This document shows, one piece after another, positions 11,608 through 41,539 of a stretch of 55,796 nt of DNA. This stretch comes from Clostridiaceae bacterium. Its GTDB lineage: Bacteria > Bacillota > Clostridia > Saccharofermentanales > DTU023. The position numbers and the translations under genes were made by a program. The number at the start of each line of letters is the position of its first letter. The first letter of the stretch is position 1. The stretch covers positions 1 to 55,796 of the forward strand of contig JAAZMK010000072.1 in the NCBI GenBank assembly GCA_012798865.1, written 5' to 3'. The notes under the pieces are model-generated. The model saw only the letters and a program-made list of their open reading frames with translations. It had not been told where the DNA came from and ran no database searches.

Positions 11608-11642
11608 GCGTTGCGGAAGAAGTAAAAGTAAGGAGGATCACA

Positions 11643-16438: not shown

Positions 16439-16442
16439 AGTT

Positions 16443-16616: not shown

Positions 16617-16618
16617 GC

Positions 16619-18897: not shown

Positions 18898-18920
18898 ATG
18901 TTTACCTCCATTTGTTAGTG

Positions 18921-20122: not shown

Positions 20123-21571
20123 TTACCAAGTGATATCGAAGTCTTCGTCTTTATCCAACGCTTCAAGTGCTTCTGATACTCGAGTCACAAAGGACTCTTT
20201 CATCGAGAACTCGGAAATGCCGTTGATATAAACGCGCACACGTCGGTCCTCCTCGTGGTAGAGCGCCATGACGTCGTCATGTTTTTCCCCGGGATACCGG
20301 TATGTGATCCTCATAAGCGGGACTTCGTCCGGTTGTTCCTTCGCGGGAAGCAGACGACCGTCCGACGCGGCACTTCCAAGCAAACGGAAGAGCAGTCGGA
20401 ACCGGTCGATGTCGAGCGGTTCGCCGTCCATCGTTACGGACGGTTCGCGCGGATTCTCCTGATCAAGCGCGAATGTCCGATGACCTTCCGGCATCTCGAT
20501 CTCAATGGCGCTTACATCCATGAGCAACGGCGACAAAAACCAACGCAACAACAACTTCTCGAACTCGATGTCCATGAACGGCTGACGTTTTATCGTATAC
20601 ACGAGGGGGCTGCCTTCTGCGTTTACATAAAACAAGGAGCCGTCGTCGCCGACAGGCTGAAATCTCAATATATAGCGCATGACCTCATCAGCACTGTTGC
20701 GATAGCCAAAGGAGACATTGAGCCACGGGTCGTCAAAGCCGTATTCTCTTTCAAGTTCTGACGTGAGGTGCTGTTCCGTAATCGTTGCTCCTCGCATTCC
20801 GCAGAGAGGTGCCAAAACTTCCAAACCGTACGTCGCGTCAAGCTCATACAGACCTGCCGACACCACGAGGTGCGTTGGCGCTCCGAATGAGATTGCCGCC
20901 GATTTGAGAGCGTCGTTACCCGCTTGCACGGAGAGGATGACGATTGGCGAAGGTCGTTCCTTAAATACAAACGTCACGTCCTGCAGTGCCGAAAGCGCGC
21001 TCGACAAGGCAAGCTTAGGCGTCACCCAAAGGGAAAGCAAGTCATTCTTAGCTAAAAGGAAGAAATCCGCCTGTTCGCTTTCGATCAGATATATGCCGTC
21101 GTGACCTTCCGCGGTACAATAGCGGTCGCCGGAGATCGGTTCTTGCATGCCGAGGGAAAGCGAAATTGTCGCGCCGTCCATGTATTCTACATTGAGCGTC
21201 GCCTCGGGGGTGTCAAGTCCGTACACTGCTAAGTTGTCCGGCTTTTTTACGACGAGGGGAAGATGGCGAATGTCGGCGCAAGCGCCTAGAAAGTCAATGA
21301 AATGTTCGATATCGACGTACTCGGAAGGGAGATCTTCGATGACATAGCCTCCTTCCGCCATACCGACTTTCCACGTGCCGGACGCATTGGTGAGATGTAC
21401 CGCACGCACGTCAGTCACTTTCCTGTCCGAAAGGGTTAGCGTCAGTTCTTCGGTCTTTTGTGTGCTCCGAAGGAGCAGCAGCAATGTTACAGCAAGTACG
21501 ACAGCAAGTATGGCAAGCCCCGTTGTAAACTGCATAAGCCTTCGCATCACTGGTACCTCCGGTAAAGCCAA
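20123..21571 (-). CDS. DUF4340-like extracytoplasmic protein of a Gld-type ABC system
   Basis: N-terminal TM; 'AVYGLDTPEATLNVEYMDG' style DUF4340 motif; position after GldG-like gene. Confidence 0.7.
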   Translation of the reverse strand: MALPEVPVMRRLMQFTTGLAILAVVLAVTLLLLLRSTQKTEELTLTLSDRKVTDVRAVHLTNASGTWKVGMAEGGYVIEDLPSEYVDIEHFIDFLGACADIRHLPLVVKKPDNLAVYGLDTPEATLNVEYMDGATISLSLGMQEPISGDRYCTAEGHDGIYLIESEQADFFLLAKNDLLSLWVTPKLALSSALSALQDVTFVFKERPSPIVILSVQAGNDALKSAAISFGAPTHLVVSAGLYELDATYGLEVLAPLCGMRGATITEQHLTSELEREYGFDDPWLNVSFGYRNSADEVMRYILRFQPVGDDGSLFYVNAEGSPLVYTIKRQPFMDIEFEKLLLRWFLSPLLMDVSAIEIEMPEGHRTFALDQENPREPSVTMDGEPLDIDRFRLLFRLLGSAASDGRLLPAKEQPDEVPLMRITYRYPGEKHDDVMALYHEEDRRVRVYINGISEFSMKESFVTRVSEALEALDKDEDFDITW

Positions 21572-23034
21572 ACGCCTATACCTGTCAGCAAGATAGCGAG
21601 CGGAATAATGCCGCCCAGAACGACGCCCAGTCTCGTCACTTGTGATGATGTCGCGCCGAGTGTTTTTCCTGCAAGAGATTTCGGTGTGATGGCGGGTCCC
21701 TCTTCGCGCCCTGCCAAGTCGTTCATCATATTGAGCAGGTAGGCGCTGTTTGAGAGAGAGGTGTTGTGAAGCGCGATCGGTTCCAGCATATGATGTGAAC
21801 TCGAGACGACGATCGAAGATTGACGCGCTAATAATCCGTCTTCATAGAAACGGCGTGAGGCTAATACGAGTGCCGGGAACGGTCCCCGCTCCGTAGCGTC
21901 ATCGGCGGTGAATTCATCCGACGCGTTTGGCGGTCTAACTGCCGCAGTTTCTCCAAACGTCAGCAGCGTCTCCGTAAACTGATGATCGCGAACAGTGAAT
22001 ATTGTCTCTAAGGGTCGCGCCAAAGGCATCAGCATCGGTGCGTTTGGGTCGACAAGCATATCGCGGTAATGAGTTTCCGCGAAGTCGGCAATGGCGTAAA
22101 ACGGCTGACGCTGATAAGTTCGTTCCGGTGTCGTCTCAAACACGGAGCCTTCGCCGACAGAAACGCCCCATTCGGCAAGAAACGATTCGATCATGGGAAG
22201 GGACGCCTGAGTCACAGAAGCCGTATAGAACAACGTTTTGCCGTAGTTTCCGTCATTGTAAAGAAAGGCGTCCAGCGCACGGATATCATCAGCGGAGAGG
22301 TCATTCTGCGGCGCGAAAAGGAATAGGACATCGTAGATGGAAAGATCATCGGTTGCCGGCACAGCGTTTTCCAAAACGTAATAGTTGTTGACGAGCAGCG
22401 TTGTGAACGCTTCCGCTTCCGGACCTCCGTTTCCTACAAGTACACCGCATCGCACATCATCCCCGCTCAAAACGTTCATGATCGCGCTCGTGATCGCCTC
22501 TTCAGCACGCGACGATTCAATTATGATCGAGCCTGAGGCGGTAGGAGTGTAGTTGAACAGAGACGAAAGAGGTATCTGTTTGACGCGGTCGCCCGAGGAA
22601 ACGATCAGATCGCCTTCGGAAAGCTTGAGATCGGGTCGGGTTGCCGCGTAACTCGGATCGGCTGCATAGTCGATGTAGTGAACCGTTACGCGCGAAGAAT
22701 GGCGTTCGTATTGTTCCAGGATTTTCATTGTCTGAACGAGATACGCATCGCCCGTAAACATCTGTTCAGGGGCGAGGATATCGATGGTGACCGGTTTTAC
22801 GAAATGATCGAGCATCGTTTTAGTCTCTTCGCCGATGTTGTATGCCGCGTTGGCAGTAAGGTCCAAGGAAAGCGGGAATCGGTTGGATAATACGAGCGCC
22901 ACCGCGTTGAGGAGAATGAACACTACCACAAGAAGCGTGATCGATACCGCGAAAAGCGCGTTCATGCGCCGACCGGTCGTATTAGTTGTTTTCTTCATGC
23001 CGCCCCTCCTTTCAGCTCCACCGGCGCTTTTCAA
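21547..23034 (-). CDS. GldG-like ABC-associated protein (IFT52/GIFT-like domain with TM at both ends)
   Basis: SLDLTANAAYNIGEETKTML, YIDYAADPSYAA, LFLFAPQNDLSADDIRALDAFLYNDG; C-terminal TM. Confidence 0.8.
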   Translation of the reverse strand: MKSAGGAERRGGMKKTTNTTGRRMNALFAVSITLLVVVFILLNAVALVLSNRFPLSLDLTANAAYNIGEETKTMLDHFVKPVTIDILAPEQMFTGDAYLVQTMKILEQYERHSSRVTVHYIDYAADPSYAATRPDLKLSEGDLIVSSGDRVKQIPLSSLFNYTPTASGSIIIESSRAEEAITSAIMNVLSGDDVRCGVLVGNGGPEAEAFTTLLVNNYYVLENAVPATDDLSIYDVLFLFAPQNDLSADDIRALDAFLYNDGNYGKTLFYTASVTQASLPMIESFLAEWGVSVGEGSVFETTPERTYQRQPFYAIADFAETHYRDMLVDPNAPMLMPLARPLETIFTVRDHQFTETLLTFGETAAVRPPNASDEFTADDATERGPFPALVLASRRFYEDGLLARQSSIVVSSSHHMLEPIALHNTSLSNSAYLLNMMNDLAGREEGPAITPKSLAGKTLGATSSQVTRLGVVLGGIIPLAILLTGIGVWLYRRYQ

Positions 23035-23716
23035 GACCTGCGCCGGTCAAGAGCACAAAAAGTGCGGCGATGCTTAAGAAAAACACCACGTTGGAAAAAT
23101 CGATGATGCCGATGGTGAAGCCGTGATAACGGTTATTGAACGACATATACATAAAAAGAGTCTTAAACGTCTTTCCTGAAACGACACTTACCAACGCATC
23201 GATCAGGACGAGCGACAGACTTGCCGCGAAGCCGCTGACAGCGGCGATGACTTGGCTTTCAGTCAAACCGGAAAGGAAAAGGCAGATGGCGATGAGCGAC
23301 GCCCCCAGCAACATCAGTCCGATTAAGTGACCGATGACGACGGGCCAATCCGTCTTTGAGAAGTATTCGACGATCAGCGCCATGATGAGCGATCCCGAGA
23401 TGGACATCAGGTACACGGCGAGCGCGGCGAAATATTTTCCGCAAACGATGCCTAAGCGTGACACGGGCGATGTAAAGAGTATTTGATTCGTGCCTGCACG
23501 CTGATCCTCGCTCATGAGCCGCATCGTCAAGATGGGCACTAAAAACAAGACGACGGTAAACAACTGGTTGAAGAGAAACGACATGTCTGTCGTATTTTTG
23601 ACGAGATTGCCCATGAAGAAGTAGTAGGCTGTGAAAAAATACATGACGGCAATAAAAACGTAGCCGAGCGGTGAGTGAAAATATGCGTGAAACTCACGTT
23701 TGAAAACAGCGATCAT
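23012..23716 (-). CDS. ABC-2 permease, GldF-like
   Basis: FKREFHAYFHSPLGYVFIAVMYFFTAYYF; MRLMSEDQRAGTNQILFTSPVS. Confidence 0.85.
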   Translation of the reverse strand: MIAVFKREFHAYFHSPLGYVFIAVMYFFTAYYFFMGNLVKNTTDMSFLFNQLFTVVLFLVPILTMRLMSEDQRAGTNQILFTSPVSRLGIVCGKYFAALAVYLMSISGSLIMALIVEYFSKTDWPVVIGHLIGLMLLGASLIAICLFLSGLTESQVIAAVSGFAASLSLVLIDALVSVVSGKTFKTLFMYMSFNNRYHGFTIGIIDFSNVVFFLSIAALFVLLTGAGLEKRRWS

Positions 23717-24693
23717 CGGAGTTCCTCACTTTCCGAGATGGGCGTTGTATCCTGATCTGTTCCTGTGACATGGAGGAAAACGTCTTCCAAAGACTGCTCG
23801 CGTCGAGTCGTTTGGAGGAGCGGAAGATCCGCATGAGCCAGAGCATGAAAAACGGCTTCGCGGATATCGGTTCCGGAGACTCCTTCGATCCGATAGTCGA
23901 ACGCGCCCGGCTCCTTCTCTAGGAGGGCTTCGACATGCTGAACGGACGGCACAGCTTGAAGCGCGTTCAAGACATCGTCTTTCGCTCCTTTAATACGCGC
24001 GACCATGCGATGGGTGGACATCATCTTTCGAGAAAGTCCTTCGGGCGTATCGTCCGCGGCGATTTTGCCTTGGTGAATCAGGATCACGCGGTCGCACATG
24101 AGCTGAATTTCGTGCAGGATATGCGACGAAACAATGACGGCACTTTTTTTGCCCGCCTCGCGAATCAGCTCGCGCATATCGACGACTTGCGACGGGTCAA
24201 GGCTTGCTGTCGGTTCATCGAGTACGAGAAGCGAAGGGTCGCCGATGAGAGCCTGCGCAAAACCTACACGCTGCCGATACCCTTTGGAAAGATTGCGAAT
24301 CATACGACGACGTTCATCGGCAAGACCGACTCGCTCACAGATGTCAGAAAGATGGTCCTCTCTCTCCTTGTGATTACGCATCACGCCCTTCAAATCACAG
24401 ACGAATGAGAGGAAGTCATTGACACGCATTTCAGGATAGAAGGAAAAAAGCTCCGGTAAATAGCCGATGTGTTTTTTTGCGTTAGTGGCATCGGCGAGGA
24501 TGTCATAGCCGGCGATACGCACCGTTCCGGACGTCGCGGCAAGGTAACCGGTCAAAATGTTCATGATCGTCGATTTTCCTGCGCCGTTAAGACCTAAGAG
24601 TCCGACAACCTGGCGATCCGCAATCGAAAAGCTGATGTCATCGAGGACTTTCTTTTCGCCGTAATATTTGACTAGATGTTCAACGTCGACCAC
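23713..24693 (-). CDS. ABC ATP-binding protein, GldA-like
   Basis: GLNGAGKST, LSKGYRQRVGFAQALIGDPSLLVLDEPTASLDP. Confidence 0.92.
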   Translation of the reverse strand: MVDVEHLVKYYGEKKVLDDISFSIADRQVVGLLGLNGAGKSTIMNILTGYLAATSGTVRIAGYDILADATNAKKHIGYLPELFSFYPEMRVNDFLSFVCDLKGVMRNHKEREDHLSDICERVGLADERRRMIRNLSKGYRQRVGFAQALIGDPSLLVLDEPTASLDPSQVVDMRELIREAGKKSAVIVSSHILHEIQLMCDRVILIHQGKIAADDTPEGLSRKMMSTHRMVARIKGAKDDVLNALQAVPSVQHVEALLEKEPGAFDYRIEGVSGTDIREAVFHALAHADLPLLQTTRREQSLEDVFLHVTGTDQDTTPISESEELR

Positions 24694-24905: not shown

Positions 24906-25232
24906 TTATGTGTTTTGTGATGCTTCTGTGAACAGGATACGCAGATAGTCTCTGCGACCGTATAGTATCCGGTCGATGAAAACGTCTTTATCGACTACTC
25001 GGTAAAATACAAGATAGTTGCCGCTGACAAGATAACGGTATTCGCTGTTGACCTTAGCGATAGCGGAAAAAGGCGCGCCAATCAGCGCGTGTTCACGCAG
25101 TCTGCGGATGGTTTTTGTGATTTTTGCAACTGTGGAGAGCGCAGCCTGCGGGTTTTCCAAAATTTTTTCAATATAGTCTTTGATTTCATAGAGATCTTTC
25201 TCCGCGTTTGGAGATAGATGCAGGTTATTCAT
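24906..25232 (-). CDS. RelE/ParE superfamily toxin
   Basis: LSPNAEKDLYEIKDYI...YRYLVSGNYLVFYRVVDKDVFIDRILYGRRDYLRIL; overlaps antitoxin gene by 8 nt. Confidence 0.88.
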   Translation of the reverse strand: MNNLHLSPNAEKDLYEIKDYIEKILENPQAALSTVAKITKTIRRLREHALIGAPFSAIAKVNSEYRYLVSGNYLVFYRVVDKDVFIDRILYGRRDYLRILFTEASQNT

Positions 25233-25479
25233 GCACGATTCCGAGATGTTCTTCTACGGCCTCCAAAGTCAACCATCCTTTTTCCTCGCCGGATGTACGC
25301 CCTTTGACAAGTTCGTTCATCAGTGTAATGATTGCCTGCGTCTTTTCGTAGTCATGTATATCTACAATGGCGTATCTGCCTCGTCCATTCTTCGTTAGAA
25401 AGACGGGAGCGCCGACATCTACTTCGCGCAGCACCTCAGAATAATTGCGGAGATCGGAAATAGGTTTAATGTTTGGCAT
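25225..25479 (-). CDS. Phd/YefM family antitoxin
   Basis: MPNIKPISDLRNYSEVLREVDVGAPVFLTKNGRGRYAIVDIHDYEK; AAAGGAG before ATG at 25479. The ORF-track start at 25551 reads through the operator. Confidence 0.88.
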   Translation of the reverse strand: MPNIKPISDLRNYSEVLREVDVGAPVFLTKNGRGRYAIVDIHDYEKTQAIITLMNELVKGRTSGEEKGWLTLEAVEEHLGIVHE

Positions 25480-25501
25480 AATTCTCAACTCCTTTATGTG
25501 T

Positions 25502-25530
25502 AGTATAGGTCGGTTTGCTGTGAAATTCAA
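25502..25530 (-). promoter_or_regulatory. Promoter of the toxin-antitoxin operon
   Basis: Minus strand TTGAAT (25525-25530), 17 bp, TATACT (25502-25507). Confidence 0.65.
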
Positions 25531-25549
25531 CTGCGAATTTACAGCAAAC
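25513..25549. promoter_or_regulatory. Long inverted repeat overlapping the TA promoter, probable autoregulatory operator
   Basis: GTTTGCTGTGAAATTC-N6-GAATTTACAGCAAAC; near-perfect with one 1-nt bulge; spans the -35. Confidence 0.7.
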
Positions 25550-25603
25550 ACGCACGCGTTTTATATTTGTGTTCATATAGCGGATTAAAGTATGAAACTT
25601 AAT

Positions 25604-26563
25604 CTAAGGAGAAAATAGAAACGCCCTCGCCTTGCCCCGCAGCAAAATAGATTCCTGTGAGGCGAGAAAGGCTGTCTGCCCCGGTGTGAGCAGGAGTTCG
25701 TCTTCTCCTGTTTGTCTGCTTTGAGGGCGCCACGAAACGGCACGGCACTGACCTTTAACGAGGAATAGTCCGGCGAATTGTCGTCTCGGCACATCCACGA
25801 CGCCTTCGCCGTTCAGTGTGAGTTCTTCCATGGCAAATTGGTCGCAACAGACTATCATGCGACGCGTCAGACCTTTTATCGTCCTCGGCTGTCCAAGACC
25901 GGGAATCTCTCGCGGCGTGGGCGTAAGAGTCGCGACGTCAAGTGCCTCTTGTAAATGGAGCCTCCGCGGCTTTCCCGCATGGTCGCGTCGATCATAGTCG
26001 AAAACGCGGTACGTCACGTTTGAGCTCTGTTGCAGCTCAAAACAGAGAATGCCTCCGCCGAGAGCATGCAGAGTGCCTGCTGGAATAAAAAAAACGTCGC
26101 CTGCATGGACGGGCACCTTTCGGAGTACCGATTCAATCGTGCCTTCTCGCACATGCTGTTCCAATTCCGTTCGCGTCAATGATTTACGAAGACCATGGTA
26201 AATCCAAGCATCGGGATCCGCGTCGAGAATATACCAGCATTCTGTTTTTCCCGATAATTCGCCATGGCGGCGCGCACTGTCCTCGTCGGGATGGACTTGT
26301 ACGGAGAGCGGCAAGCGCGCGTCGATTAGTTTCGCCAAAATCGGAATCGTGCCGTCCTGATGTGCCGAACCGCCCGCCAACCACGGCTCCATTGACAGAC
26401 GATCCTGAAGGGTACGCCCGTCGGAAAGGCGTGAATGACCGTCCGCGTGAGTGGAAAGCTCCCAGCTCTCGGCGAGCCGTTCTCCCGAACCCTTGCGATA
26501 TCGCTCAAAGAGCCGGAAGCCGCCCCAAATCGCGTCTTTAAGAGAGGGTCGCAAAGATAGCAT
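25604..26563 (-). CDS. manA: Mannose-6-phosphate isomerase, class I
   Basis: LRPSLKDAIWGG, LSVQVHPDE, GKTECWYILDADP, FFIPAGTLHALGGGILCFELQQSSNVTYRVFDYDRRD. Confidence 0.92.
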   Translation of the reverse strand: MLSLRPSLKDAIWGGFRLFERYRKGSGERLAESWELSTHADGHSRLSDGRTLQDRLSMEPWLAGGSAHQDGTIPILAKLIDARLPLSVQVHPDEDSARRHGELSGKTECWYILDADPDAWIYHGLRKSLTRTELEQHVREGTIESVLRKVPVHAGDVFFIPAGTLHALGGGILCFELQQSSNVTYRVFDYDRRDHAGKPRRLHLQEALDVATLTPTPREIPGLGQPRTIKGLTRRMIVCCDQFAMEELTLNGEGVVDVPRRQFAGLFLVKGQCRAVSWRPQSRQTGEDELLLTPGQTAFLASQESILLRGKARAFLFSP

Positions 26564-26564
26564 G

Positions 26565-27470
26565 TCAGCCTCCGATCCGAATGTCCAGCCCCATCCGGCG
26601 ACCGAGAGCCGCCGCCTCGCTCATATCTTCCGGTGTCAGGGTCTTCAGGTGCTCCAGCGTATACGGCTGACCAAGCTTCGCATACTTGGCGCGTCCAAGT
26701 TGGTGGAATGGCAGCAATACATACGTTGTCACACCCAACGCAAGGGCAAGGTGAAAGATGCTCCGCAATGTAGGAAGGTCGTCGTTGTACCCGGGGATGA
26801 CCGCGGTGCGAAGCGTCACGTTGGCGCCGTCATCCATTAACTTGCCGATATTCGAAGTGACAAGATCAAGGTCGGCGCCCGTTTCGCGCAAAAGAACGTC
26901 GCGATCCGAGTGTTTCAAATCGATGTAAAAAAAGTCAACGTACGGCAACACGCTTTCCAACACTTTGTAGGAAAGTGCTGCCGTCGTTTCCACGCATGTT
27001 GTAAGACCCGCCTGTTTCGCTTGGGAAAGCAACACCTCCACCCCTTGCTGACAAAAGGGCTCTCCCCCCGAAAGTGTCAGACCGCCGCCCGTCGCGCGAT
27101 AATAATCGGCATCTTTCATCACGACGGCGAGAATCTCTTCGGACGACATAATCTCTGAGGAAAGGGAATACGCCCCACCGGGACAGACCGGTACACAGCG
27201 CCCGCACGAAATACATCGCGAGCGATCCACATGGAGTCGTCCTTCACGTAAGGAAAGCGCCTGTTGGGGGCAATGCGGCACACAGTTACCGCAAGCGACA
27301 CATCGCCTGCCATCGTGCAAGAGGACGGGGCGAAAAGGTTGCGTTTCGGGATTGCAACACCAAGCGCAGTGCAAAGGGCACCCTTGGAAAAAGACGACCG
27401 TGCGCAGTCCCGGACCGTCATGATAGGCGCCGCGTTCAATGCTGGTGACAAAAAACTTGGGATTATCCAT
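26565..27470 (-). CDS. Glycyl-radical enzyme activating protein (radical SAM with ferredoxin-like insert)
   Basis: CPLHCAWC (CX3CX2C) followed by two 4Fe-4S motifs CVACGNCVPHCP and CISCGRCVPVCP; TLSGGEPFCQ. Confidence 0.93.
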   Translation of the reverse strand: MDNPKFFVTSIERGAYHDGPGLRTVVFFQGCPLHCAWCCNPETQPFRPVLLHDGRRCVACGNCVPHCPQQALSLREGRLHVDRSRCISCGRCVPVCPGGAYSLSSEIMSSEEILAVVMKDADYYRATGGGLTLSGGEPFCQQGVEVLLSQAKQAGLTTCVETTAALSYKVLESVLPYVDFFYIDLKHSDRDVLLRETGADLDLVTSNIGKLMDDGANVTLRTAVIPGYNDDLPTLRSIFHLALALGVTTYVLLPFHQLGRAKYAKLGQPYTLEHLKTLTPEDMSEAAALGRRMGLDIRIGG

Positions 27471-29739
27471 AGAGCACTCGACTCATCAGCTCTTCCTGGA
27501 TATCAGTTTCGAGGTTGACGAACACCGCTGAGAACCCCGATACGCGGACAAGCAGATCGCGGTAAGCATCGGGATTCTTCACCGCTTTCTCAAGTTCCCC
27601 TCGATTCACGATCGTGACCATTAACTGGCATCCGCCGCGGTCGAAATAGACGCGGAACATTTTCTTGACCAAATCGCGGTGACCGTTGAAAAAATCAGGT
27701 GTGAACTTGATGTTCTGGAGACTGCCGCCGTGAAGTCCCGCATCAAAACGCGTCAGAGAATTGAGCATGGCGGTGGGACCGCTCGTGTTGGCGCCTCCTT
27801 GCGGATTGTTCGCGGGATTCATAAACTGCCCTTTTCTGCGTCCATCGTAGGATGCCGCCGTGCGCCGTCCCCACTCAGTATTCAACTGGTTATTGCTGAT
27901 GACGATCAGAAAATACGTCATGCCCGCGTTGATGCCTCGATCGCGAATGCCGTTTGCGACAAATTCAAATACTTCGTTTGCCATGGTGTCGGCTTCGTCG
28001 TTGTCGTTCCCGTATTTCGGCGCTTCCCAGAGATGTCGGCGAAGCAGCATGTTGCCGTCAAAATCGCGGTTGACAGCGTCTCGCAACGCCGAAAGTGTGA
28101 CCCGTTGATCTTCGAACACAACCTTTTTTATCGCCGTGAGGGAGTCAGACACGTTGATGTTGCCGTACGTTTCAACTGTTCCGCCCAGATACCTGATACC
28201 CCCGTCCAACACGGCTTTGCCGCGTTCAATGCAATCGTCCATCAAGATGCTTGTGAATAGGAATGAGACTTCCTGATTCATAACCTCGTAGGAGAGCAAT
28301 TGACTTTCAATCGAGAGATCAAAGTAATGGTCGAGGAGTCTCTTGTATTGAGAAAACAGCACATCGAAAGACCCAATCTCTTCCGCGGGAAGAAGCGGTA
28401 CACCGTCGCTTTTGTCGATGCCGTCCATCGGATCGACGCCGTTATTCAGCGCTATTTGAAGTATTTTTAATAGATTGATGCAAATATTCGGCGTGCCGAC
28501 GCTCTGTCCCTGAATGACAAATTCTCCGCACCCGAACGGCACGTACTGTTCCGCCGTTTTTTCATCGACACGCATCGCGCGCATGACGGCGGGGACATGG
28601 ACATCGTCGTTGTAAAGTGTCGGGTACGTCGCTCCGCTTCCGATCGCGTCAAGTGCGGCGTCGATGATGTCTTCAGGCGTTTCCCGATCGAACCGCAATG
28701 TGAATTGCGGCTCGACATACCGGCATGAATGAGCGACATCCATCGCGATTCTAGTGAAGATGTCGGCAGATTCAGGATCTCGGCGACCTCGACCGCCTAC
28801 GATAATGCGACCGTTCACCGTCGTGCGGCGGTTTTCGATCATCGTCCAAAGCGATTGAAGGAGAGAGAAAGCCTCGTCTTCCGTAAGACGCCCCATACGC
28901 AAATCGCGCGCGAGAAATGGACCGAGGACATCGTCCATGCGACCGTAATTGATAACGCCGGCGAGGAGCGCATAAAGCCAAAAGAGTTGTAAGGCTTCCA
29001 CGAAGGTTTCCGGTCGATCGTTTCGAATATGAAGGAGTGCCGCCTCCATGCGCAGAAGTTCTTCCCGCCGCTTAGGCGTCGAGCCCTCCATGGCGGTGCG
29101 GGTCTTGTCGGCGAGGTGGTCGCAGCACGAAGAGAATAAATCCAAGGAAGCCAGGGACGCCCGGTAAAAGTCGTTGTCTTCCAGTTTTTCTTGTTGTTCG
29201 CGAATGCGTTTTCGAAGACCGTCGATACCGAGTTCCATGAGCATGTGGTAATTGAGCATCATGCCGGAGAGCCGTGCCGTCACGATAAGAGGGTACTCAC
29301 AATCGATGAACATGCCGACTACGTCATCCTTTAAGGCCTGTCTGCAATACTTCGTTTTCAGATCGTGTTCAAGCCAGTAATCGTAAAGCGCATCGACGCG
29401 TTCGTGTTCGTCAGGGGGGAGGAGATCTTTAAAAGCGGTCAGCTTGTTAAACACGCAATAGTGACCTACGCCGCCGATGGAGGTCACGCAGCCGAAACCG
29501 ATCGGCAGAAAATCCAGTCTGCCCGCAAAGAGATCGTCAGGTTCAATTGAGCGAAAAAGCGCCGGATACAGGACGCGAAGACAGGCGATCTCTCGTTCCT
29601 CTCGCGATTTTCCCTCGTAGGCGCGATGTGTTGCCGTATAGCGCTCCATGAGCTCCAGTTGATCCATCGGCGACATTTCCGGAGGTATTTTGATGGAAAC
29701 AGCGACATTTTGCGGAGTTTCAACGCTGAACTTCGGCAT
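27463..29739 (-). CDS. Glycyl radical enzyme, PFL-like (substrate unknown)
   Basis: Glycyl loop VRVSGFSAVFVNLETDIQEELMSR (Gly codon 27535-27537); active-site motif FGCGEF (Cys codon 28528-28530). ORF-track start 29874 lies inside nanE; MPKFSVETPQ at 29739 with AAAGGAG is preferred. Confidence 0.92.
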   Translation of the reverse strand: MPKFSVETPQNVAVSIKIPPEMSPMDQLELMERYTATHRAYEGKSREEREIACLRVLYPALFRSIEPDDLFAGRLDFLPIGFGCVTSIGGVGHYCVFNKLTAFKDLLPPDEHERVDALYDYWLEHDLKTKYCRQALKDDVVGMFIDCEYPLIVTARLSGMMLNYHMLMELGIDGLRKRIREQQEKLEDNDFYRASLASLDLFSSCCDHLADKTRTAMEGSTPKRREELLRMEAALLHIRNDRPETFVEALQLFWLYALLAGVINYGRMDDVLGPFLARDLRMGRLTEDEAFSLLQSLWTMIENRRTTVNGRIIVGGRGRRDPESADIFTRIAMDVAHSCRYVEPQFTLRFDRETPEDIIDAALDAIGSGATYPTLYNDDVHVPAVMRAMRVDEKTAEQYVPFGCGEFVIQGQSVGTPNICINLLKILQIALNNGVDPMDGIDKSDGVPLLPAEEIGSFDVLFSQYKRLLDHYFDLSIESQLLSYEVMNQEVSFLFTSILMDDCIERGKAVLDGGIRYLGGTVETYGNINVSDSLTAIKKVVFEDQRVTLSALRDAVNRDFDGNMLLRRHLWEAPKYGNDNDEADTMANEVFEFVANGIRDRGINAGMTYFLIVISNNQLNTEWGRRTAASYDGRRKGQFMNPANNPQGGANTSGPTAMLNSLTRFDAGLHGGSLQNIKFTPDFFNGHRDLVKKMFRVYFDRGGCQLMVTIVNRGELEKAVKNPDAYRDLLVRVSGFSAVFVNLETDIQEELMSRVLYG

Positions 29740-30488
29740 CAGTGCGCACTCCTTTCCGCATCGCGCCAGTTCGTTCGGAAACCGTTCATCAAATCGGTAA
29801 ACCGTTTCGCCGTAAGATGCGGTCTCGTAATGGCGCTTCCTACGACCACGGCGTGCGCGCCTAGATAGAGGCACTTGATCGCGTCTTCAGGCGTGTAGAC
29901 ATGTCCCTCCATAATCATGTACGTGTCATCGCCGAAATCTCGACACATGCGGGCGAACTCGCGTGCGTTAAAGTGCTCGATATCCCACGTCTCTTGGGTA
30001 TAACCGTAAAGAGTGGGCGCCACCATGTCGGCACCCAGTTCGATCGCGCGCGCCGCCTCTTCGTAATTTGAAATGTCCGCGAAAAAAATGGCATCCGGAA
30101 ACGCCTTGATTGCCTTGGGCAATAGTTCCCAAGCGGGACGTCCCTCCGCCGTAAGCTGATCGGTGCAGTCAAGTGCGATGATTTCCGCTCCAGCCTCGTA
30201 GACTTCGCGTACGGCGTCAAACGTGGGCGTAATAAAGACGTTGGATCCCTCATGCCACTGTTTGTAAAGACCGATCACGGGAAGATCGACGGCAGCCTTG
30301 ATGTCGCGAATCTGGCTTGGCGAGTTCGCACGGATGCCTACCGCGCCGCCCCACGCCGCAGCCTCCGCCATCTTGACATGCATATCCGGCGTGCTGATCG
30401 GATCGTCGTCCTGTACTTGACAGGACACAATGAGACCGTTTTTTAGCGATTCGATTAACGCTCTCTTTCGCGGATCATTCGTTTTCAT
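29739..30488 (-). CDS. nanE: N-acetylmannosamine-6-phosphate 2-epimerase
   Basis: GGAVGIRANSPSQIRDIKAAVDLPVIGLYK; IIALDCTDQ; GHVYTPEDA; AVVVGSAITRPH. Confidence 0.92.
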   Translation of the reverse strand: MKTNDPRKRALIESLKNGLIVSCQVQDDDPISTPDMHVKMAEAAAWGGAVGIRANSPSQIRDIKAAVDLPVIGLYKQWHEGSNVFITPTFDAVREVYEAGAEIIALDCTDQLTAEGRPAWELLPKAIKAFPDAIFFADISNYEEAARAIELGADMVAPTLYGYTQETWDIEHFNAREFARMCRDFGDDTYMIMEGHVYTPEDAIKCLYLGAHAVVVGSAITRPHLTAKRFTDLMNGFRTNWRDAERSAH

Positions 30489-30520
30489 ACAGTTGCTCCT
30501 GCTAATTTGTTCATAATATG

Positions 30521-30549
30521 AGTGTAGTACTTTGTGTTTGCAAAGTCAA
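30521..30549 (-). promoter_or_regulatory. Promoter of the nanE-GRE-activase-manA operon
   Basis: Minus strand TTGACT (30544-30549), 17-bp spacer, TACACT (30521-30526). Confidence 0.65.
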
Positions 30550-30564
30550 TCATTTATTTGCAAA
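30537..30564. promoter_or_regulatory. Twin TTTGCAAA palindromes, candidate DeoR-family operator
   Basis: TTTGCAAA at 30537-30544 and 30557-30564, exactly 20 bp apart, with a further half-site GCAAA at 30570. Confidence 0.6.
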
Positions 30565-30659
30565 AACGCGCAAATATTAAACGCGGTGTTGTGATTGTCC
30601 TACACCACTGTGAAAGTGTTTTAGTGCGTTATGCTTAAGAAAGCGTCACAAATCAGATG

Positions 30660-31430
30660 TCATGTCTTTTCTTCAACGAACACGACGTTTGACGGGAATT
30701 CTTCTTCCGGCGGCGGTCCGTCAAGATAAACAGTTGTAAATGAATCTAAGCCTGCAATTCTACAAAGACCTACTTTAGACAGTTTGGAGCGATCGGCAAG
30801 AAGATATGCATCGGTGGCATTTTGAAGCGCGATCTGTTTGATGGCGGTCACGTCCATATCGGTTGCATAAACGGTGTTATTGTGGATATCAAGCCCCATA
30901 CAGCCGATGAAAGCATGATGCAAACCGAATTTTTTCAGTGCACACTCCGCGAGGGATCCGACAATCATTTGATCGGCGGGCATGTATCGACCGCCCACGA
31001 CGAAAACTTCCGCTCGCGCATTCGGTTTCATTTGACGCAAAACCATCGTATTGCATGTTACGATACGAATCGGCATGGCGAGCAGTATCGGCGCCAACGG
31101 TGCGATACTCGTACCCATATCCAGGAAAACACATTCACCGGGTTGTACAACCTCCGCAGCGGCACGGGCGACCATTTGTTTGGCTTCCGTATTCACCGTG
31201 TGCTTTGACTGCATCGACAGTTCTACCTGATAGTTATTCTCGAGATCTTCCTCCGAGCGAATGGCGCCGCCTTGTACGCGTCGAAGAGATCCTTGATTTT
31301 CAAGTTTTATGAAATCACGGCGAACGGTCGCTTCCGACACGTCAAGTTCGCGGGCGATGCTCTTGTAATCGATAATGCCCAACTCGTTCAGTCTTTTGAT
31401 GATGTAGAGTCGTCTCGCGGATGCAATCAT
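30660..31430 (-). CDS. DeoR-family transcriptional regulator
   Basis: RRLYIIKRLNELGIIDYKSIARELDVSEATVRRDFIKLENQGSLRRVQGGAI; ATG at 31430 or TTG at 31445. Confidence 0.92.
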   Translation of the reverse strand: MIASARRLYIIKRLNELGIIDYKSIARELDVSEATVRRDFIKLENQGSLRRVQGGAIRSEEDLENNYQVELSMQSKHTVNTEAKQMVARAAAEVVQPGECVFLDMGTSIAPLAPILLAMPIRIVTCNTMVLRQMKPNARAEVFVVGGRYMPADQMIVGSLAECALKKFGLHHAFIGCMGLDIHNNTVYATDMDVTAIKQIALQNATDAYLLADRSKLSKVGLCRIAGLDSFTTVYLDGPPPEEEFPSNVVFVEEKT

Positions 31431-31450
31431 GTTTATTTTCCTCAATATTT

Positions 31451-32395
31451 CTATATATCGCCTAGATAAGCCGCGCCAATCGTGCCCGCCGCATTGCCCA
31501 ATGCGGCTTTCTCGATGGGCGGCGCCCCGATGATGTCGTGGGCAAAGACGAATTGTTCGACTTTCTTGCGAACCGGCTCCAAAAGCGTGTCGCCTGCTCC
31601 CGACAACCCGCCTCCTAACAGCACAATTTCCGGACGGAATATATTGATGAAGCCACCGATTCCTGCTGCAAGATAGGTGCAGTATTGATCGACGACTCGC
31701 ATAGCGACGACATCGCCTTTACGTGCACAATCGAAAGCCGTGCGACCTGAGACGCCGCCATGTGCCGCGGCGTGCGCGTGCATCCGCGATTCGGGGTTTT
31801 TCGACATGGCTTCTTCCGTCTGACGGATCAGCGCCGTCACGGACGCGTAGGCTTCGAGGCATCCATCGATGCCACACGTACACGGTTCTCCTTCTGCGAC
31901 AAGAGGTGTGTGACCGAGTTCCGCACCCATACCGTCACCTCCGCTGAAAAGACGTCCGTTAATGATCAAGCCGCCGCCTACGCCTGTGCCCAACGTCAGC
32001 ATCAGTACATGGCGATAACCTTTCGCCGCGCCGGCGAGCATCTCTCCGACGACGGCGCAGTTGGCGTCGTTTTCGATAAAGACCGGCACGGGGATATGTT
32101 TCTCAAGTTCTTGCTTCAGCGGCATGTTCCGCCAATTTGTATTATTTGAAAAAACGAGAAGTCCCGTGTAGGGATTGATACAGCTGGGCGAACCGACGCC
32201 GACCGAAGGGAAGTCTTCCAAGCGTAGTCCTGCTTTCTCTGCCGCTATGCGCGCCGTTTCCGCCATATCGGCAACGACAAGCTCGAATCCTTCCACTGTC
32301 GGCTGCTGATGGCTGCAAATGACTTGATACGTTTCATCCACGATACCGACCTTGATGGCGGTGCCGCCTAGATCAATTCCGATCCGATACTGCAT
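31451..32395 (-). CDS. ROK family sugar kinase
   Basis: IGIDLGGTAIKVGIVD; ENDANCAVVGEMLAGAAKG; GTGVGGGLIINGRLFSG; CTCGIDGCLEAYAS zinc motif. Confidence 0.93.
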   Translation of the reverse strand: MQYRIGIDLGGTAIKVGIVDETYQVICSHQQPTVEGFELVVADMAETARIAAEKAGLRLEDFPSVGVGSPSCINPYTGLLVFSNNTNWRNMPLKQELEKHIPVPVFIENDANCAVVGEMLAGAAKGYRHVLMLTLGTGVGGGLIINGRLFSGGDGMGAELGHTPLVAEGEPCTCGIDGCLEAYASVTALIRQTEEAMSKNPESRMHAHAAAHGGVSGRTAFDCARKGDVVAMRVVDQYCTYLAAGIGGFINIFRPEIVLLGGGLSGAGDTLLEPVRKKVEQFVFAHDIIGAPPIEKAALGNAAGTIGAAYLGDI

Positions 32396-32483
32396 GTTGT
32401 CACCTCGTTATCAATGATCTTTTATTCTTTGTGCTTCTTCTGAGAAGATGACTTTAACTTTCTTTCCTTTGAACCGCTCTCGA

Positions 32484-33386
32484 CTACACACCGACGCGTT
32501 TCAACGTATCGACGATGAAACGTTTGGCTCGGTCGATATCCCCCTCATCCAAGTGCTCGATGATGAGCGGGATGTTGGGATTTTTTTCGGCAAGGCGCTT
32601 CACGTATAAATCGTAGTTAAGAATGCCCAGTCCGGCGGCTGGCAGCTCAACGGCGCCTGATCCGCGGAATGTGTGTGATGCGTCCGCATCGATATCGGCA
32701 TGTTTTTCGCCTAAATCCTCCGTCAGATTGATATCTTTGGCGTGGGCGATGACCATGTGGTCGCTTAAGCGGTCGAAGATATGGTTTAAAGTACCATCGA
32801 TATCTTTGATCGTGTTTTCGTCAAAATAGTTCGTCGGATCGCAAATGAGTCCGAGATGATCGCATCCCACTTCTTTGAACATCCGCTCGACCTGTTCGAC
32901 CGAGCCGATCACGTTATTGACGTAATTTTCGACGATGAATGTCGCGCCCCACTCTTTTGCGTACGCGACCAGATCTCGAATAATCTCAATGGTTTCTTCA
33001 AATACTTCGGGGCTTGCATTTTTGTCATGCCATACCCAATCGCTTTCTCGATTGTACGTGCCGGTTTCGCTGGCGACATAAGGACATCCGAGGTCGCGGG
33101 CGTAGCGCATCATCATCTTGAGGTAATCGATATTCTTCTTGCGGACATCCGGATCGGGATGAATGAAATTTGTGTAAGCGGATACCGCGACGATGGGAAG
33201 GTCGGCTTCTCGGAAAGCGTCACGTATTTCATTCGCCTTCTTTTTTGTGAGCGGCTCCTTTGCCGCATCGAAATCCTTAAACGTGACGTCCAGCTGGACA
33301 CAATTGAAGCCGGACGCTTTGATGCGGCGAATGACCTCCGCCATTGTGTAAGGATAGTACCCGGTAAAAATGCCAATGCTAATCAT
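32484..33386 (-). CDS. Sugar phosphate isomerase/epimerase-like TIM barrel
   Basis: FIVENYVNNV, LICDPTNYF, VIAHAKDI, LIIEHLDEGD. Confidence 0.88.
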   Translation of the reverse strand: MISIGIFTGYYPYTMAEVIRRIKASGFNCVQLDVTFKDFDAAKEPLTKKKANEIRDAFREADLPIVAVSAYTNFIHPDPDVRKKNIDYLKMMMRYARDLGCPYVASETGTYNRESDWVWHDKNASPEVFEETIEIIRDLVAYAKEWGATFIVENYVNNVIGSVEQVERMFKEVGCDHLGLICDPTNYFDENTIKDIDGTLNHIFDRLSDHMVIAHAKDINLTEDLGEKHADIDADASHTFRGSGAVELPAAGLGILNYDLYVKRLAEKNPNIPLIIEHLDEGDIDRAKRFIVDTLKRVGV

Positions 33387-33405
33387 AATGTCTCCTCTCT
33401 ATACT

Positions 33406-34509
33406 TTAAAAACCGAACTCGTCAAAGCGTACCGTTCGTTTCTCTTCAATGGATCGGTAGCATCCTTCCACGCACGCGATGGTCCGAACATTGTCGCGTG
33501 CGGAGATCTCTGGCTCATCATCCTGTTCAACGGCTCTGAGAAGGCTCGTCATCGTGCCTTCGAAGGCATCGGGAAACCAGACCGTATCCCAGACTGGGGC
33601 GATCCATTGGTGCGGATAATGTTTAGACGTGAATTGCAATGTTGACGGAGCGCGCATAGGGTAATCAGGCCAACCGATCGTGCCTTTGACCATGCCGTCC
33701 ATTCCCTCGACACGCCATTTTATGTAAATATCCTTTTCGCACGGTTCTTCCGGCCATGCCCACACGTCGTCAAGTGACGTCGCCAATAGATCGCTCGGAT
33801 ACTTGAACGTGAATTGCGTTATGCCGTCTACGTGCGGGAAACGAGTTCTCGGATCAGGGCGGCAAACACAAGTAATCTCTTCGGGATCGCCAAATAGGAA
33901 ACGAAATATGTCAACGTGGTGGATGCCCATGCTGAAGATTTCCAGTCGGTCATACTCCTCTAAAAAGGGTTGCCAGTGCGGGATCGCACGCATTTCAATC
34001 GTGGCGAGCACAGGCTCGCCGAGAATGCCTTCGTCGAGCAAATACTTTAGAGCGCGCATCGACTGATCACAGCGCATATTGGAATTGACGGCAATTTTCT
34101 TGTCACTTTCGTCGCCAAGACTCGCAATCTCTTTTGCATCTTCCAACGTCATCGCAACCGGTTTCTGACAAAGGATGCCCTTGATGTGGTCGCGTTTCAC
34201 CGCCTCGCGGACGATGTCAAGCTGTTGATCAGGCGGGTAGGCGATATCAAGTATCTCAATCGACTCGTCATCCAATAGCTCTCGCCATGTGTCGTACACA
34301 TTCGGGATCGCATGACGTTGGGCGACTGTCTCGGCGTGTGACGGCGTGCGCGACGCGATCGCCGCCGGTTGAAGCCCCGCATTGCGATATGCGACGAGAT
34401 GACAGTCCGCCATGATGAAACCGGCGCCGATACAACCGATCCGCCAGTCCTTTCTTTGAGGCGGTTCATATCGAGTCGCCTCAACCAACCGTTGCTCAAT
34501 AACGTTCAT
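33406..34509 (-). CDS. Gfo/Idh/MocA family oxidoreductase
   Basis: IGCIGAGFIMADCHLVAYRNAG; LCQKPVAMTLEDAKEI; MGIHHVDIFRFLFGD. Confidence 0.9.
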   Translation of the reverse strand: MNVIEQRLVEATRYEPPQRKDWRIGCIGAGFIMADCHLVAYRNAGLQPAAIASRTPSHAETVAQRHAIPNVYDTWRELLDDESIEILDIAYPPDQQLDIVREAVKRDHIKGILCQKPVAMTLEDAKEIASLGDESDKKIAVNSNMRCDQSMRALKYLLDEGILGEPVLATIEMRAIPHWQPFLEEYDRLEIFSMGIHHVDIFRFLFGDPEEITCVCRPDPRTRFPHVDGITQFTFKYPSDLLATSLDDVWAWPEEPCEKDIYIKWRVEGMDGMVKGTIGWPDYPMRAPSTLQFTSKHYPHQWIAPVWDTVWFPDAFEGTMTSLLRAVEQDDEPEISARDNVRTIACVEGCYRSIEEKRTVRFDEFGF

Positions 34510-34548
34510 CGGGTAGATTCTCCTTTCAAGAGTCTGTATATACGATGC

Positions 34549-35307
34549 TTATTTCGCCTCTCGCGCGGCGATTACGGAGGCAAGCTCCGTATTATCGGTG
34601 ATTTTGGGAAGAACCAATGTGCCTTCCGCCTCTCTTCGGTACGCGTCGTTCATAATCGTCTCGGTTCGTGTGCAGCCGAATCGCGATACGCCGACGGCAC
34701 AGACGATCAGTGCGTCGTCGAGAGTTCGTACGCCGCCGGCAGCTTTGACACGCATGGAAGACGGCGTATTGGCGCGCATCAGTTTCAGATCATGGACGGT
34801 CGCGCCGCCGGGCGCATAGCCGGTCGACGTCTTCGTAAAATCGGCACCGACGTCTGTACAAATACGGCATGCCAACAGTTTTTGCTCGTCAGTCAAATAG
34901 GCGTTCTCAAAAATAACCTTGACCAAAGCATCGGAAGCGTGTGCGGCGTCCACAACGGCACGCAAATCCTTACGCACATAGTCTAAGTTGTCGGAAAGAA
35001 GCCGTCCGATGTTCAAGACGACATCGACTTCCACACAGCCGTCATCGATGGCTTTTTGCGTCTCAAAGACTTTCGTCTCCGTATCGTTGGATCCGTGAGG
35101 AAAACCGACCACTGTCGTCAATTTAACGTCACTTCCCTTGAGGATATTCGCGGCGAATCGGACATCCGCCGGGCGAAGACAAACGGATACGCAACGATAC
35201 GTCATAGCCGTTTCGCATCCTTTTTCGATCGTATCCAATGTAAACGTCGGGTTGAGTAAAGAGACATCAATCATGTCGGCGATTTCTTGCGCAGTTACTT
35301 TATTCAT
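34549..35307 (-). CDS. deoC: Deoxyribose-phosphate aldolase (DeoC-like)
   Basis: DVSLLNPTFT, TTVVGFPHGSN, EVDVVLNIGRLL, TKTSTGYAPGGATV, VKAAGGVRT. Confidence 0.9.
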   Translation of the reverse strand: MNKVTAQEIADMIDVSLLNPTFTLDTIEKGCETAMTYRCVSVCLRPADVRFAANILKGSDVKLTTVVGFPHGSNDTETKVFETQKAIDDGCVEVDVVLNIGRLLSDNLDYVRKDLRAVVDAAHASDALVKVIFENAYLTDEQKLLACRICTDVGADFTKTSTGYAPGGATVHDLKLMRANTPSSMRVKAAGGVRTLDDALIVCAVGVSRFGCTRTETIMNDAYRREAEGTLVLPKITDNTELASVIAAREAK

Positions 35308-35712
35308 TTTGCCTCCTCATCGGAAAATCAATGATTATCAGGATGTTGTCGCCATGTATCTGAGTCGGGTGTGATTATTCTGCTCCCAATTAGGAAAGTA
35401 CGCACAAATCTCATCCAAACGATCGTTAACGCATCGACCATTGTCCCGGTGATTTTCCTTTCATTGAAAAGAGTATCAAAACGCCCAAAAGAGACAGTAT
35501 TTCAAGCGTTTTTTGAGATAATTTATTATATCATGAGTTTCAGGAGTGAACAAATCATTTCAATTATTTTCAGTTCTTTGAAAGACCACAAGAAATAGAG
35601 GTCGATAGTCAAGTTTCTTTTGGTAACATAATAAAGGGCTGCACCTTATATTTACATTAATATAAACGCGAGCAACAAAAATAAGCACCGATCGGAAGGG
35701 AAGCAAATCACT

Positions 35713-36834
35713 ATGACGGTCTTATCGAATCTCAGACTCTTTGACGGTACGCGTTTTCTTGATGAGACGGCGATCTCTTTTGACAACGGTACGATCACGG
35801 CGCTCGGCACTATGACGGACGGCATCGATATGGGCGGACGTCTGCTCTCTCCCGGATTGATCGATCTTCATATGCACGGTCAAATGGGCGAAGATAACAT
35901 GCGTCCGGGCGGGACGACGCGCATCGCGACCACACAGCCGCAATTCGGCGTCACATCCTTTTGCCCGACCTCCGTCACCGATTCGGACGAGCAAACACGC
36001 GTTTTTCTGGAAAATGTACGCCAAGCGATGGAATCAGCGCAGGGCGCGCGCGTCTTGGGCGCATATTTGGAAGGACCTTATCTCGATCATGATTTACGCG
36101 GTGTCCACGACGAGCGCTTCCTGAAGGAGCCGTCCGTTTCCGATTACCGCGCGCTCGTTGAAGGTTACGAAGACCTGATCGTTCGCGTTACGCTCGCACC
36201 TGAAAAAAATGGCGGTATGGAGTTGGTGCGTTTTCTTGCCGATCAGGGAATTACCGTGTCGATCGGACACTCGGCTGCCACTGCCGACGAAACGGCGGAG
36301 GCTGTCAGGCTCGGCGTGAGTACGACGACACACACATTTAACGCCATGCCCGCGCTCCATCACCGACAGCCCGGCGTTCTCGGTGTCGCTCTGACCCATC
36401 CCGATCTCAAAGCGGAATTCGTCGCGGATATGGTTCATATACATCCTCTTATCGTGAAACTGATCTACCTTGCCAAGGGTGCGGAAGGTTGTTTCTACTG
36501 TACGGATTCCATGGAAGCAGCCGGAATGCGGGACGGCATTTACCGCCTTGGCAATGGGGCGGTCTCCGTGCAAGACGGCATCGCGCGGAAAGGTGAACGG
36601 TTGGCGGGAAGCACGCTCACAATGGATCGGGGTCTTCGTCTTCTTGTCGAAGAGGCGGACATTCCCCTGCATGACGCGCTGCGCATGGGAACTCGCAACC
36701 CCGCTGACGTCATCGGTCGCCCCGATCTCGGACGCCTTGTTCCCGGTGCCAAAGCTGATTTCGTACTTTGGGATGATGCGCTTCATGTCGAGGCTACGTA
36801 TATTGAAGGTCGCTGTTTCTATCGTGCCGACTGA
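35713..36834 (+). CDS. nagA: N-acetylglucosamine-6-phosphate deacetylase
   Basis: SPGLIDLHMHGQMG, GAYLEGPYL, VSIGHSAA, THTFNAMPALHHRQPG, YCTDSMEAAGM. Confidence 0.92.
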   Translation: MTVLSNLRLFDGTRFLDETAISFDNGTITALGTMTDGIDMGGRLLSPGLIDLHMHGQMGEDNMRPGGTTRIATTQPQFGVTSFCPTSVTDSDEQTRVFLENVRQAMESAQGARVLGAYLEGPYLDHDLRGVHDERFLKEPSVSDYRALVEGYEDLIVRVTLAPEKNGGMELVRFLADQGITVSIGHSAATADETAEAVRLGVSTTTHTFNAMPALHHRQPGVLGVALTHPDLKAEFVADMVHIHPLIVKLIYLAKGAEGCFYCTDSMEAAGMRDGIYRLGNGAVSVQDGIARKGERLAGSTLTMDRGLRLLVEEADIPLHDALRMGTRNPADVIGRPDLGRLVPGAKADFVLWDDALHVEATYIEGRCFYRAD

Positions 36835-40549: not shown

Positions 40550-41539
40550 GTGGGAGCAGAAAACGAAGGAAATATGGTCGTGGCGGCACTTGGGGATGAA
40601 TGGTGTGTAGGTGGCAAAGAGCACAGGATGACCGTTTTGGGTGATGGACGGCGTGTAGCCGTGAAGCCAGAGTATGAATGTGCCGATCCGCGCATCGCTA
40701 GACTGCTTTACGACGTACGTTCGCCCTTTTTGCCGAGATGTCTCGGCCTGACATCTCCCGAGAGAGGAGATGGCGTCGTTTGGAGGGGCGAAAGGAACTC
40801 GATATTCTCTGTGCAAGAGTGTCTAGATACTCGCTTTTTAGAGGGGCGCGAACCGCTGCCTTTTCTAGAATGCTATCCATCGCCCGCTGTGCCTTCAATT
40901 GTTTTTGAATGGGTTGACGGACAAACGATGCGCGATATCGAAAAAAGTGCATTGTCGTCGACACGATTAGAAAAATGGTTCGACGATATCCTTGACGGTC
41001 TGGCGTGGCTCAGCCGATGTGCCGGCAACCCGATTGCCCATCTCGATATTTCGCCGGATAACATCGTCATCGCGCAGTCGGGCGATGCCTTGCTGATTGA
41101 TTTTTCCGGCGCGCGCGTGCTCGATGGCTGTGCCCGAGCGCCCGAGGCATCACGTATTTACAAGGAAGGTTATGCGGCGCCGGAAATCTTTCTGGGCGAT
41201 CTTTTGCCTGAAAGTGACTTGTATGCGCTTGCCAAGTCAATCCTTTCCGTTTGGTGCGATGAATCGGCGAAGACATTGACTCATTCCTCAATAAGGGGAG
41301 CTTTATGCAAACTTGACCTGCCATTTTCCGAGAGATTGCGATGCTGCCTGTCTGATGATCCGGTGGTGAGGCGCGATGCACTGCGCGATTGTTCGTTGAA
41401 ACCGGTCACGGAGGAAAGACAGCTTCAATGCATAAAATGTGAACCGGATCAAATGCCGACCCGCGATGATGATCCGTGCCCCTATTCACTTGCTACGTGT
41501 CCGTTTCTTGAAGTCGCAGATATCATTTGCGGCGAGTAG
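40550..41539 (+). CDS. Eukaryotic-type Ser/Thr protein kinase-like protein
   Basis: VAVK; catalytic-loop HLDISPDNIVI; DFSGAR; GYAAPE; SDLYALAKSIL. No TM/PASTA; Cys-containing C-terminus. Confidence 0.75.
   Translation: MGAENEGNMVVAALGDEWCVGGKEHRMTVLGDGRRVAVKPEYECADPRIARLLYDVRSPFLPRCLGLTSPERGDGVVWRGERNSIFSVQECLDTRFLEGREPLPFLECYPSPAVPSIVFEWVDGQTMRDIEKSALSSTRLEKWFDDILDGLAWLSRCAGNPIAHLDISPDNIVIAQSGDALLIDFSGARVLDGCARAPEASRIYKEGYAAPEIFLGDLLPESDLYALAKSILSVWCDESAKTLTHSSIRGALCKLDLPFSERLRCCLSDDPVVRRDALRDCSLKPVTEERQLQCIKCEPDQMPTRDDDPCPYSLATCPFLEVADIICGE

Follow-up and report, generated by a model that had tools for sequence, protein, structure and literature searches.

A recurrent gene module pairing a distinct glycyl radical enzyme subfamily with a NanE-like epimerase, and its candidate substrates

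The described glycyl radical enzymes (GREs) with which the system presented here can best be compared are PflD and YbiW (the 1,5-anhydromannitol-6-phosphate, AM6P, and 1,5-anhydroglucitol-6-phosphate, AG6P, lyases), the clostridial B12-independent glycerol/propanediol dehydratase and the choline trimethylamine-lyase CutC, which removes trimethylamine from choline. Many GREs that are abundant in the gut have no known function (reviewed in PMC11574389). Here we analyze a stretch of 55,796 nucleotides from a Clostridiaceae bacterium (contig JAAZMK010000072.1; the whole stretch is referred to as the window) in which a GRE gene adjoins that of a relative of NanE, the N-acetylmannosamine (ManNAc)-6-phosphate 2-epimerase. 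The module formed by these genes is real, recurrent and uncharacterised and, as proposed in the initial annotation of this region, no characterised pathway fits the locus. Its three most constant genes are the following:

26565-27470, minus strand: radical-SAM GRE activase with two 4Fe-4S ferredoxin-type clusters (TIGR02494, 275 bits, cut-off 174)
27463-29736, minus strand: GRE of about 757 aa (PF02901, E=5.5e-121; Gly_radical PF01228, E=3.2e-21)
29739-30488, minus strand: NanE-like aldose-6-phosphate 2-epimerase of a non-canonical subfamily, directly upstream of the GRE (PRK01130, 227 bits, cut-off 189)

The open reading frame (ORF) of the GRE as listed mechanically (803 aa) is over-long and overlaps nanE; the start is likely the ATG at about 29736, just past the nanE stop, which gives the length of about 757 aa.

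The presence of an amino-sugar-type enzyme beside a GRE, already pointed out in the initial annotation, turned out to be conserved across genomes, and the firm partner of the GRE is this non-canonical NanE subfamily, not nagA or deoC. Among 245 genomes of Erysipelotrichales, 34 had both genes and 203 neither, 6 had the GRE alone and 2 the epimerase alone (Fisher p=4e-33, a value inflated by shared ancestry). In the two epimerase-only genomes (G144, G253) the epimerase is located at or near a contig end and the expected neighbours are present. The GRE-only genomes contain a single true case of a GRE without epimerase (G084): three others (G082, G102, G256) have a diverged relative of the epimerase, adjoining the GRE in the first two, in one (G063) both genes are interrupted by stop codons, and in the last (G055) the contig ends within the GRE itself. 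In Lactobacillales (338 genomes) the same three genomes carry both GRE and epimerase, and a fourth epimerase match (G517) is a 50% relative found without the GRE. In Lachnospirales (334 genomes) seven carry both, one (G781) the epimerase only and two (G677, G770) only a GRE of the closer clade A described below, while the clade-B GREs of this order come without a NanE-like epimerase. The pairing holds even where the two genes sit far apart in the genome. Some irregular copies were also found. One Lactobacillales genome (G442:C1:245017-247278) has a GRE with one internal TAG and an intact epimerase, either decay or a sequencing error. Genome G256 has four tandem GRE copies or pieces on contig C69 (L192, 1-9225; 45-51% identity), one of them with an internal TAG, and also two tandem diverged nanE-like genes.

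The roles of Gln11, Arg40, Lys63, Asp124, Tyr149, Glu180 and Arg208 have been defined in the NanE of Staphylococcus aureus, in which Tyr149 packs on the acetamide methyl of the substrate (PMC8482478). Since all of these residues are kept in the NanE-like protein, it is very probably a working aldose-6-phosphate 2-epimerase. It also preserves the NanE signature VG(S/G)AxTR (VGSAITR in the window). In contrast, the signature XPXIGIXKZ (Z basic) is not preserved, the window having LPVIGLYKQ and the subfamily I, V, Q or M after the Lys, so that the canonical GIxK-basic stretch is replaced here by GLxK and a non-basic residue. The NanE-like proteins found with clade-A GREs are 57-83% identical to that of the window and the canonical NanE paralogues of the same genomes only 37-44%. 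No nanA was found among the window genes searched.

By sequence comparison, the GRE cannot be assigned to any characterised class. It scores well under every NCBIfam GRE cut-off (332 bits against a cut-off of 678 for the general PFL2-3 model) and solved GREs match it at 235 bits or less. Its possible clustering within a characterised class, a check suggested in the initial annotation, gave a negative result. In a tree of 66 rows (from which the very long row L006, of odd composition, was disregarded) all 32 members of the family group together (SH-aLRT 92); the stem leading to them is long, and PflD, YbiW and HypD fall outside the group. Taking identity to the window GRE as the boundary, the family can be divided into clade A (47-96%), with members in Bacillota, Parabacteroides, a Spirochaetaceae and Vibrio, and clade B (33-43%), a looser set found in Ignavibacteriota, Cloacimonadota, Bacteroidota, Verrucomicrobiota and Lachnospirales. 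The AlphaFold2 model (mean pLDDT 88, pTM 0.90) has the GRE barrel fold, with a TM-score by query length of 0.84 both to glycerol dehydratase (1r8w, the best fold match) and to YbiW with AG6P. A search of the literature on GREs with ManNAc, anhydroglucitol or N-acetylglucosamine (GlcNAc)-6-phosphate turned up no paper on this enzyme in the collection searched. Four loci (L194, L196, L198, L207) contain a corrinoid methyltransferase island (URO-D, a B12-binding protein, a RACo-like protein and DUF1638, joined at some of the loci by HPS, PHI and DeoC), and in L198 and L207 a nanE-like gene is found inside it. We have treated this island as a separate system because in L196, L198 and L207 it is paired with another GRE type (25-26% identity) and its activase.

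Active-site residues were placed by alignment (one of the alignments having 24 rows). Cys403 and Glu405 (GCGEF, with the CxE motif on the Cys loop) are invariant in the 32 family members, as is the radical Gly734 in RVSGFS. The CxE motif, shared with PflD/YbiW, with glycerol dehydratase (C433/E435) and with CutC, suggests an eliminase-type GRE. However, the residues His164, His281, Ser282 and Asp447 of glycerol dehydratase, which we take to be its substrate-binding set and whose letters were confirmed in the alignment, correspond in the family to Gly, mostly Gly, Val/Cys/Ile and Pro, and the partner genes are different as well. Instead, the family has near-invariant residues of its own, among them R155, R310, R318, Q344, N615 and N616, that the other GREs compared seldom or never have. 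R155 and R310 are fully invariant, and their positions have neutral residues in those GREs, which suggests that the substrate is anionic. Altogether the enzyme resembles eliminase GREs but, as far as alignment and gene context can tell, is a member neither of the diol dehydratases (active site) nor of PflD/YbiW (clade and FSA partner).

The remaining genes of the locus, and a transporter located further away in the window, are:

25604-26563, minus strand: manA, ManA-type class I mannose-6-phosphate isomerase (TIGR00218, 116.7 bits, barely over the cut-off of 116.2)
30660-31445, minus strand: DeoR-family regulator (PF00455/PF08220)
31451-32395, minus strand: ROK sugar kinase, nearest to the glucokinase-type subfamily (PF00480; TIGR00744, 251 bits, under the cut-off of 260)
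32484-33386, minus strand: xylose-isomerase-like TIM barrel (PF01261; a 68% relative in locus L236)
33406-34509, minus strand: Gfo/Idh/MocA oxidoreductase (PF01408)
34549-35307, minus strand: DeoC, deoxyribose-phosphate-type aldolase (TIGR00126, 226 bits, cut-off 117)
35713-36834, plus strand: NagA-type deacetylase, a divergent, lineage-specific neighbour (TIGR00221, 268 bits, cut-off 226)
12815-17716, minus strand: probable sugar transporter of the system, with two permeases (PF02653 twice), an ATPase (ABC_tran) and a ribose-type binding protein (Peripla_BP_4)

All ten genes from manA to nagA were found at the coordinates and on the strands originally assigned to them, with strong family matches. 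The catalytic residues of DeoC are intact (D95/K159/K188 align with D102/K167/K201 of E. coli DeoC, K167 being the Schiff-base Lys) and the metal and catalytic residues of NagA align with those of E. coli NagA. The gene order is identical in a sister genome (L013), nagA included, with most genes at about 90-99% identity and manA at 79%. No second PFL-like GRE was found in the source genome (1.56 Mb, 93.5% complete). The functional unit probably reaches beyond 25604-36834, because in L039 relatives of the ribose-type transporter (36-53% identity) precede the GRE in the order substrate-binding protein (SBP), ABC, two permeases, ROK, deoR, nanE and GRE.

To see which of these genes belong to the module we counted the neighbours of the GRE in 60 non-redundant clade-A loci; the ORFs were picked mechanically and several loci are short, so that the counts are lower bounds. 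The activase was present in 53, the nanE-like gene in 42 and deoR in 33. Much less frequent were ManA and mannose-family phosphotransferase systems (PTS) (9 each), Gfo (8), ROK (7), DeoC (7), fructose-family PTS (5), NagA (3) and FSA (1). DeoC and nagA, both part of the scheme in the initial annotation, are thus occasional neighbours, too rare to be core partners. The further genes seen in recurrent operons are those of ROK, ManA, Gfo and either a ribose-type ABC transporter or a PTS. ROK is found beside the nanE-like gene in L013, L014, L039, L089, L235 and L237-L240, and other Gfo enzymes share the GRE operon in L235, L237, L238 and L240. For example, three Lachnospiraceae have SBP-ABC-permease-ROK-nanE-GRE-activase-Gfo (L238), SBP-ABC-permease-ROK-nanE-GRE-ManA-activase (L239) and ROK-nanE-GRE-ManA-activase-Gfo (L237). 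In Parabacteroides distasonis (L089) the order is ROK-nanE-GRE-activase-sugar O-acetyltransferase; this record is labelled as a plasmid but may be a chromosomal piece, because ftsH, lon and dnaG are on it. Two other associations were discarded: a link to trehalose (treC/treB near L015, L016 and L031) was limited to three loci and lay outside the GRE operon, and an idea involving heparan proved wrong once the neighbour sequences of L015 were read.

A way to approach the substrate is to look at the loci that depart from the common arrangement. The four clade-A loci without a detected epimerase (L031 from Vibrio, L181, L233 and L234) all have a fructose-family PTS upstream, while among the remaining 56 this type of PTS appears in one unlinked case, 5.6 kb away. 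The PTSs of L031 and L233 have as best match the mannosylglycerate PTS model (MngA-like), under its cut-off, and the operon of L234 contains a glycoside hydrolase of family 38 (GH38) whose sole NCBIfam match, below cut-off, is mannosylglycerate hydrolase. In clade B we found GH92 (L032), GH130 (L036) and, in L223, a cupin of the lyxose isomerase family accompanied by a PfkB kinase and a class II aldolase. Combining these contexts with ManA, we infer that a manno-configured hexose is the common thread of the loci. The epimerase would be needed where the sugar enters in gluco form, and not where it enters as mannose-6-phosphate.

Our preferred reading, tentative and held at somewhat less than even confidence, is that the epimerase, ManA or a PTS provides a hexose-6-phosphate of manno configuration on which the GRE acts, in an undescribed sugar-catabolic module built around a distinct GRE subfamily. 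After import of a hexose by the ABC transporter, the ROK kinase would phosphorylate it at C6, a task that could also fall to a PTS. The NanE-like enzyme, plus ManA from the fructose side, would produce the manno epimer, with its axial C2 substituent, and this epimer, mannose-6-phosphate or a compound closely similar to it, would be the substrate of the GRE. The Cys403 thiyl radical may then abstract a hydrogen adjoining C2, with Glu405 accepting the hydroxyl proton, and the C2 substituent would leave to give a 2-deoxy carbonyl sugar phosphate. A possible Gfo-type reduction could precede a DeoC-type cleavage into acetaldehyde and a tetrose phosphate. Which bond is broken by the GRE, and what follows, is speculative; the regiochemistry and the later steps are the least secure portion of the scheme and, taken alone, are unlikely to be right as drawn. 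If true, the preferred reading would extend the known substrates of GREs to manno-type hexose phosphates, a new class, and would give sugar fermentation an oxygen-sensitive branch, and a nanE annotation beside a GRE should not be taken as sialic acid catabolism. It makes the specific prediction of a fixed partnership between a GRE and a sugar-phosphate 2-epimerase in gut Erysipelotrichaceae, Lachnospiraceae, Enterococcus and P. distasonis, several of them cultured.

Several observations weigh against it. The conserved Tyr149 of the epimerase suits an N-acetylated substrate, and two PTS IIC proteins have as best match, far under its cut-off, the N-acetylgalactosamine IIC model. Since ManA already takes care of mannose-6-phosphate in cells, some advantage, such as electron balance, would have to justify a radical route. 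Of the 60 loci, only 7 have DeoC and 8 have Gfo, the enzymes invoked for the last steps, in the vicinity of the GRE. Finally, clade B has neither such an epimerase nor an adjacent 6-kinase, so its substrate may differ.

The conserved Tyr149 and the IIC matches would be explained if the NanE-like protein were a true GlcNAc-6-phosphate/ManNAc-6-phosphate epimerase and the GRE eliminated the C2 acetamido or another N-linked group of a hexosamine-6-phosphate, in the manner of CutC. The conserved catalytic residues, the divergent nagA in the window and in L013, and a nagA-like gene in L195/L197 also agree with such a C-N lyase. But the MngA-type PTS, GH38, GH92, GH130 and ManA links indicate a nitrogen-free mannose, ordinary NagA/NagB would do the same job more profitably, nagA is near the GRE in just three loci, and the first NanE signature lacks its basic residue. 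The window GRE gives only some 181-220 bits to solved CutCs and has a different gene context. We consider this reading unlikely, if worth keeping in mind. Rather doubtful also is a stricter form of the preferred reading, in which a repurposed 2-epimerase of NanE type would make mannose-6-phosphate from glucose-6-phosphate and the GRE would dehydrate that very compound. A DeoC-type aldolase would cleave the 2-deoxyhexose phosphate into acetaldehyde and a tetrose phosphate, and the whole would amount to a radical branch of hexose breakdown.

The analogy drawn in the initial annotation was with PflD/YbiW, i.e., opening of a 1,5-anhydrohexitol-6-phosphate to 1-deoxyfructose-6-phosphate followed by aldolase cleavage. 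That chemistry is real (PMC12441222), with structures available with AG6P/AM6P bound (8id7, 8id0). The window GRE shares with these enzymes the fold, the Gly radical, the Cys and CxE motif, a radical-SAM activase and a sugar setting, with a PTS in some of its relatives. In E. coli, ybiU (DUF1479, presumably a 2-oxoglutarate-oxygenase-type family) is near ybiW, and a PhyH-family oxygenase gene is found near the GRE in L031 (8095-8892) and L090 (14215-14967), an oxygen-using enzyme beside an oxygen-sensitive one; the parallel looks like two routes, one aerobic and the other anaerobic, to the same inert compound. A second parallel that keeps this alternative alive is E. coli K-12 yjjI (DUF3029; L220, 4616000-4622000), which we take to be a GRE and which adjoins deoC, so that the window may not be the only place with a GRE next to an aldolase of deoC type. 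However, the window GRE belongs to a separate clade (about 26% identity to PflD-type matches), and its family has Gly in place of the H164 of PflD and YbiW. Its partners are NanE and ROK/ABC, with no FSA aldolase next door (no FSA/transaldolase family member was found among the window genes searched). A PflD-type GRE with its activase and FSA coexists with the GRE of this family, adjoining its locus, in L021 and L201 (genome G106). Moreover, a NanE-type 2-epimerase would be unable to act on an anhydrohexitol because such a compound has no aldehyde. On clade, active site and coexistence we have rejected the anhydrohexitol as the best reading and consider it improbable.

Still less probable, in our opinion, is a GRE whose substrate is the aglycone or the whole glycoside (e.g., a hexosyl-glycerate, freeing the hexose), the epimerase and ManA merely disposing of mannose-6-phosphate. 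The GH38 of L234 and the MngA-like PTSs of L031 and L233 would fit, and R155/R310 could bind a carboxylate, but most clade-A loci have no glycosidase nearby. That these genes are chance neighbours without a common pathway, as the variable content beyond nanE, GRE and activase might suggest, is hardly credible given their co-occurrence over 245, 338 and 334 genomes, including genomes with both genes far apart, and the breakage of both in G063.

Other features of the window were noted in passing. Two more sets of Gfo/Idh/MocA and xylose-isomerase-like TIM barrel genes (8638-12722 and 17941-20048) resemble a glycoside-oxidation island; the Gfo at 8638 has levoglucosan dehydrogenase as best match (181 against a cut-off of 650). 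Between manA and an ABC transporter there is a small putative RelE/Phd-like toxin-antitoxin pair (24906-25551, by eye). The transporter region (20123-24693), an ABC ATPase with three membrane proteins that looks by eye like a gliding-type ABC-2 system, also adjoins the GRE operon in L012 and L013. Lastly, a protein-kinase-like ORF (PF00069) is located at 40550-41539, between clpX-type and folD-type genes.

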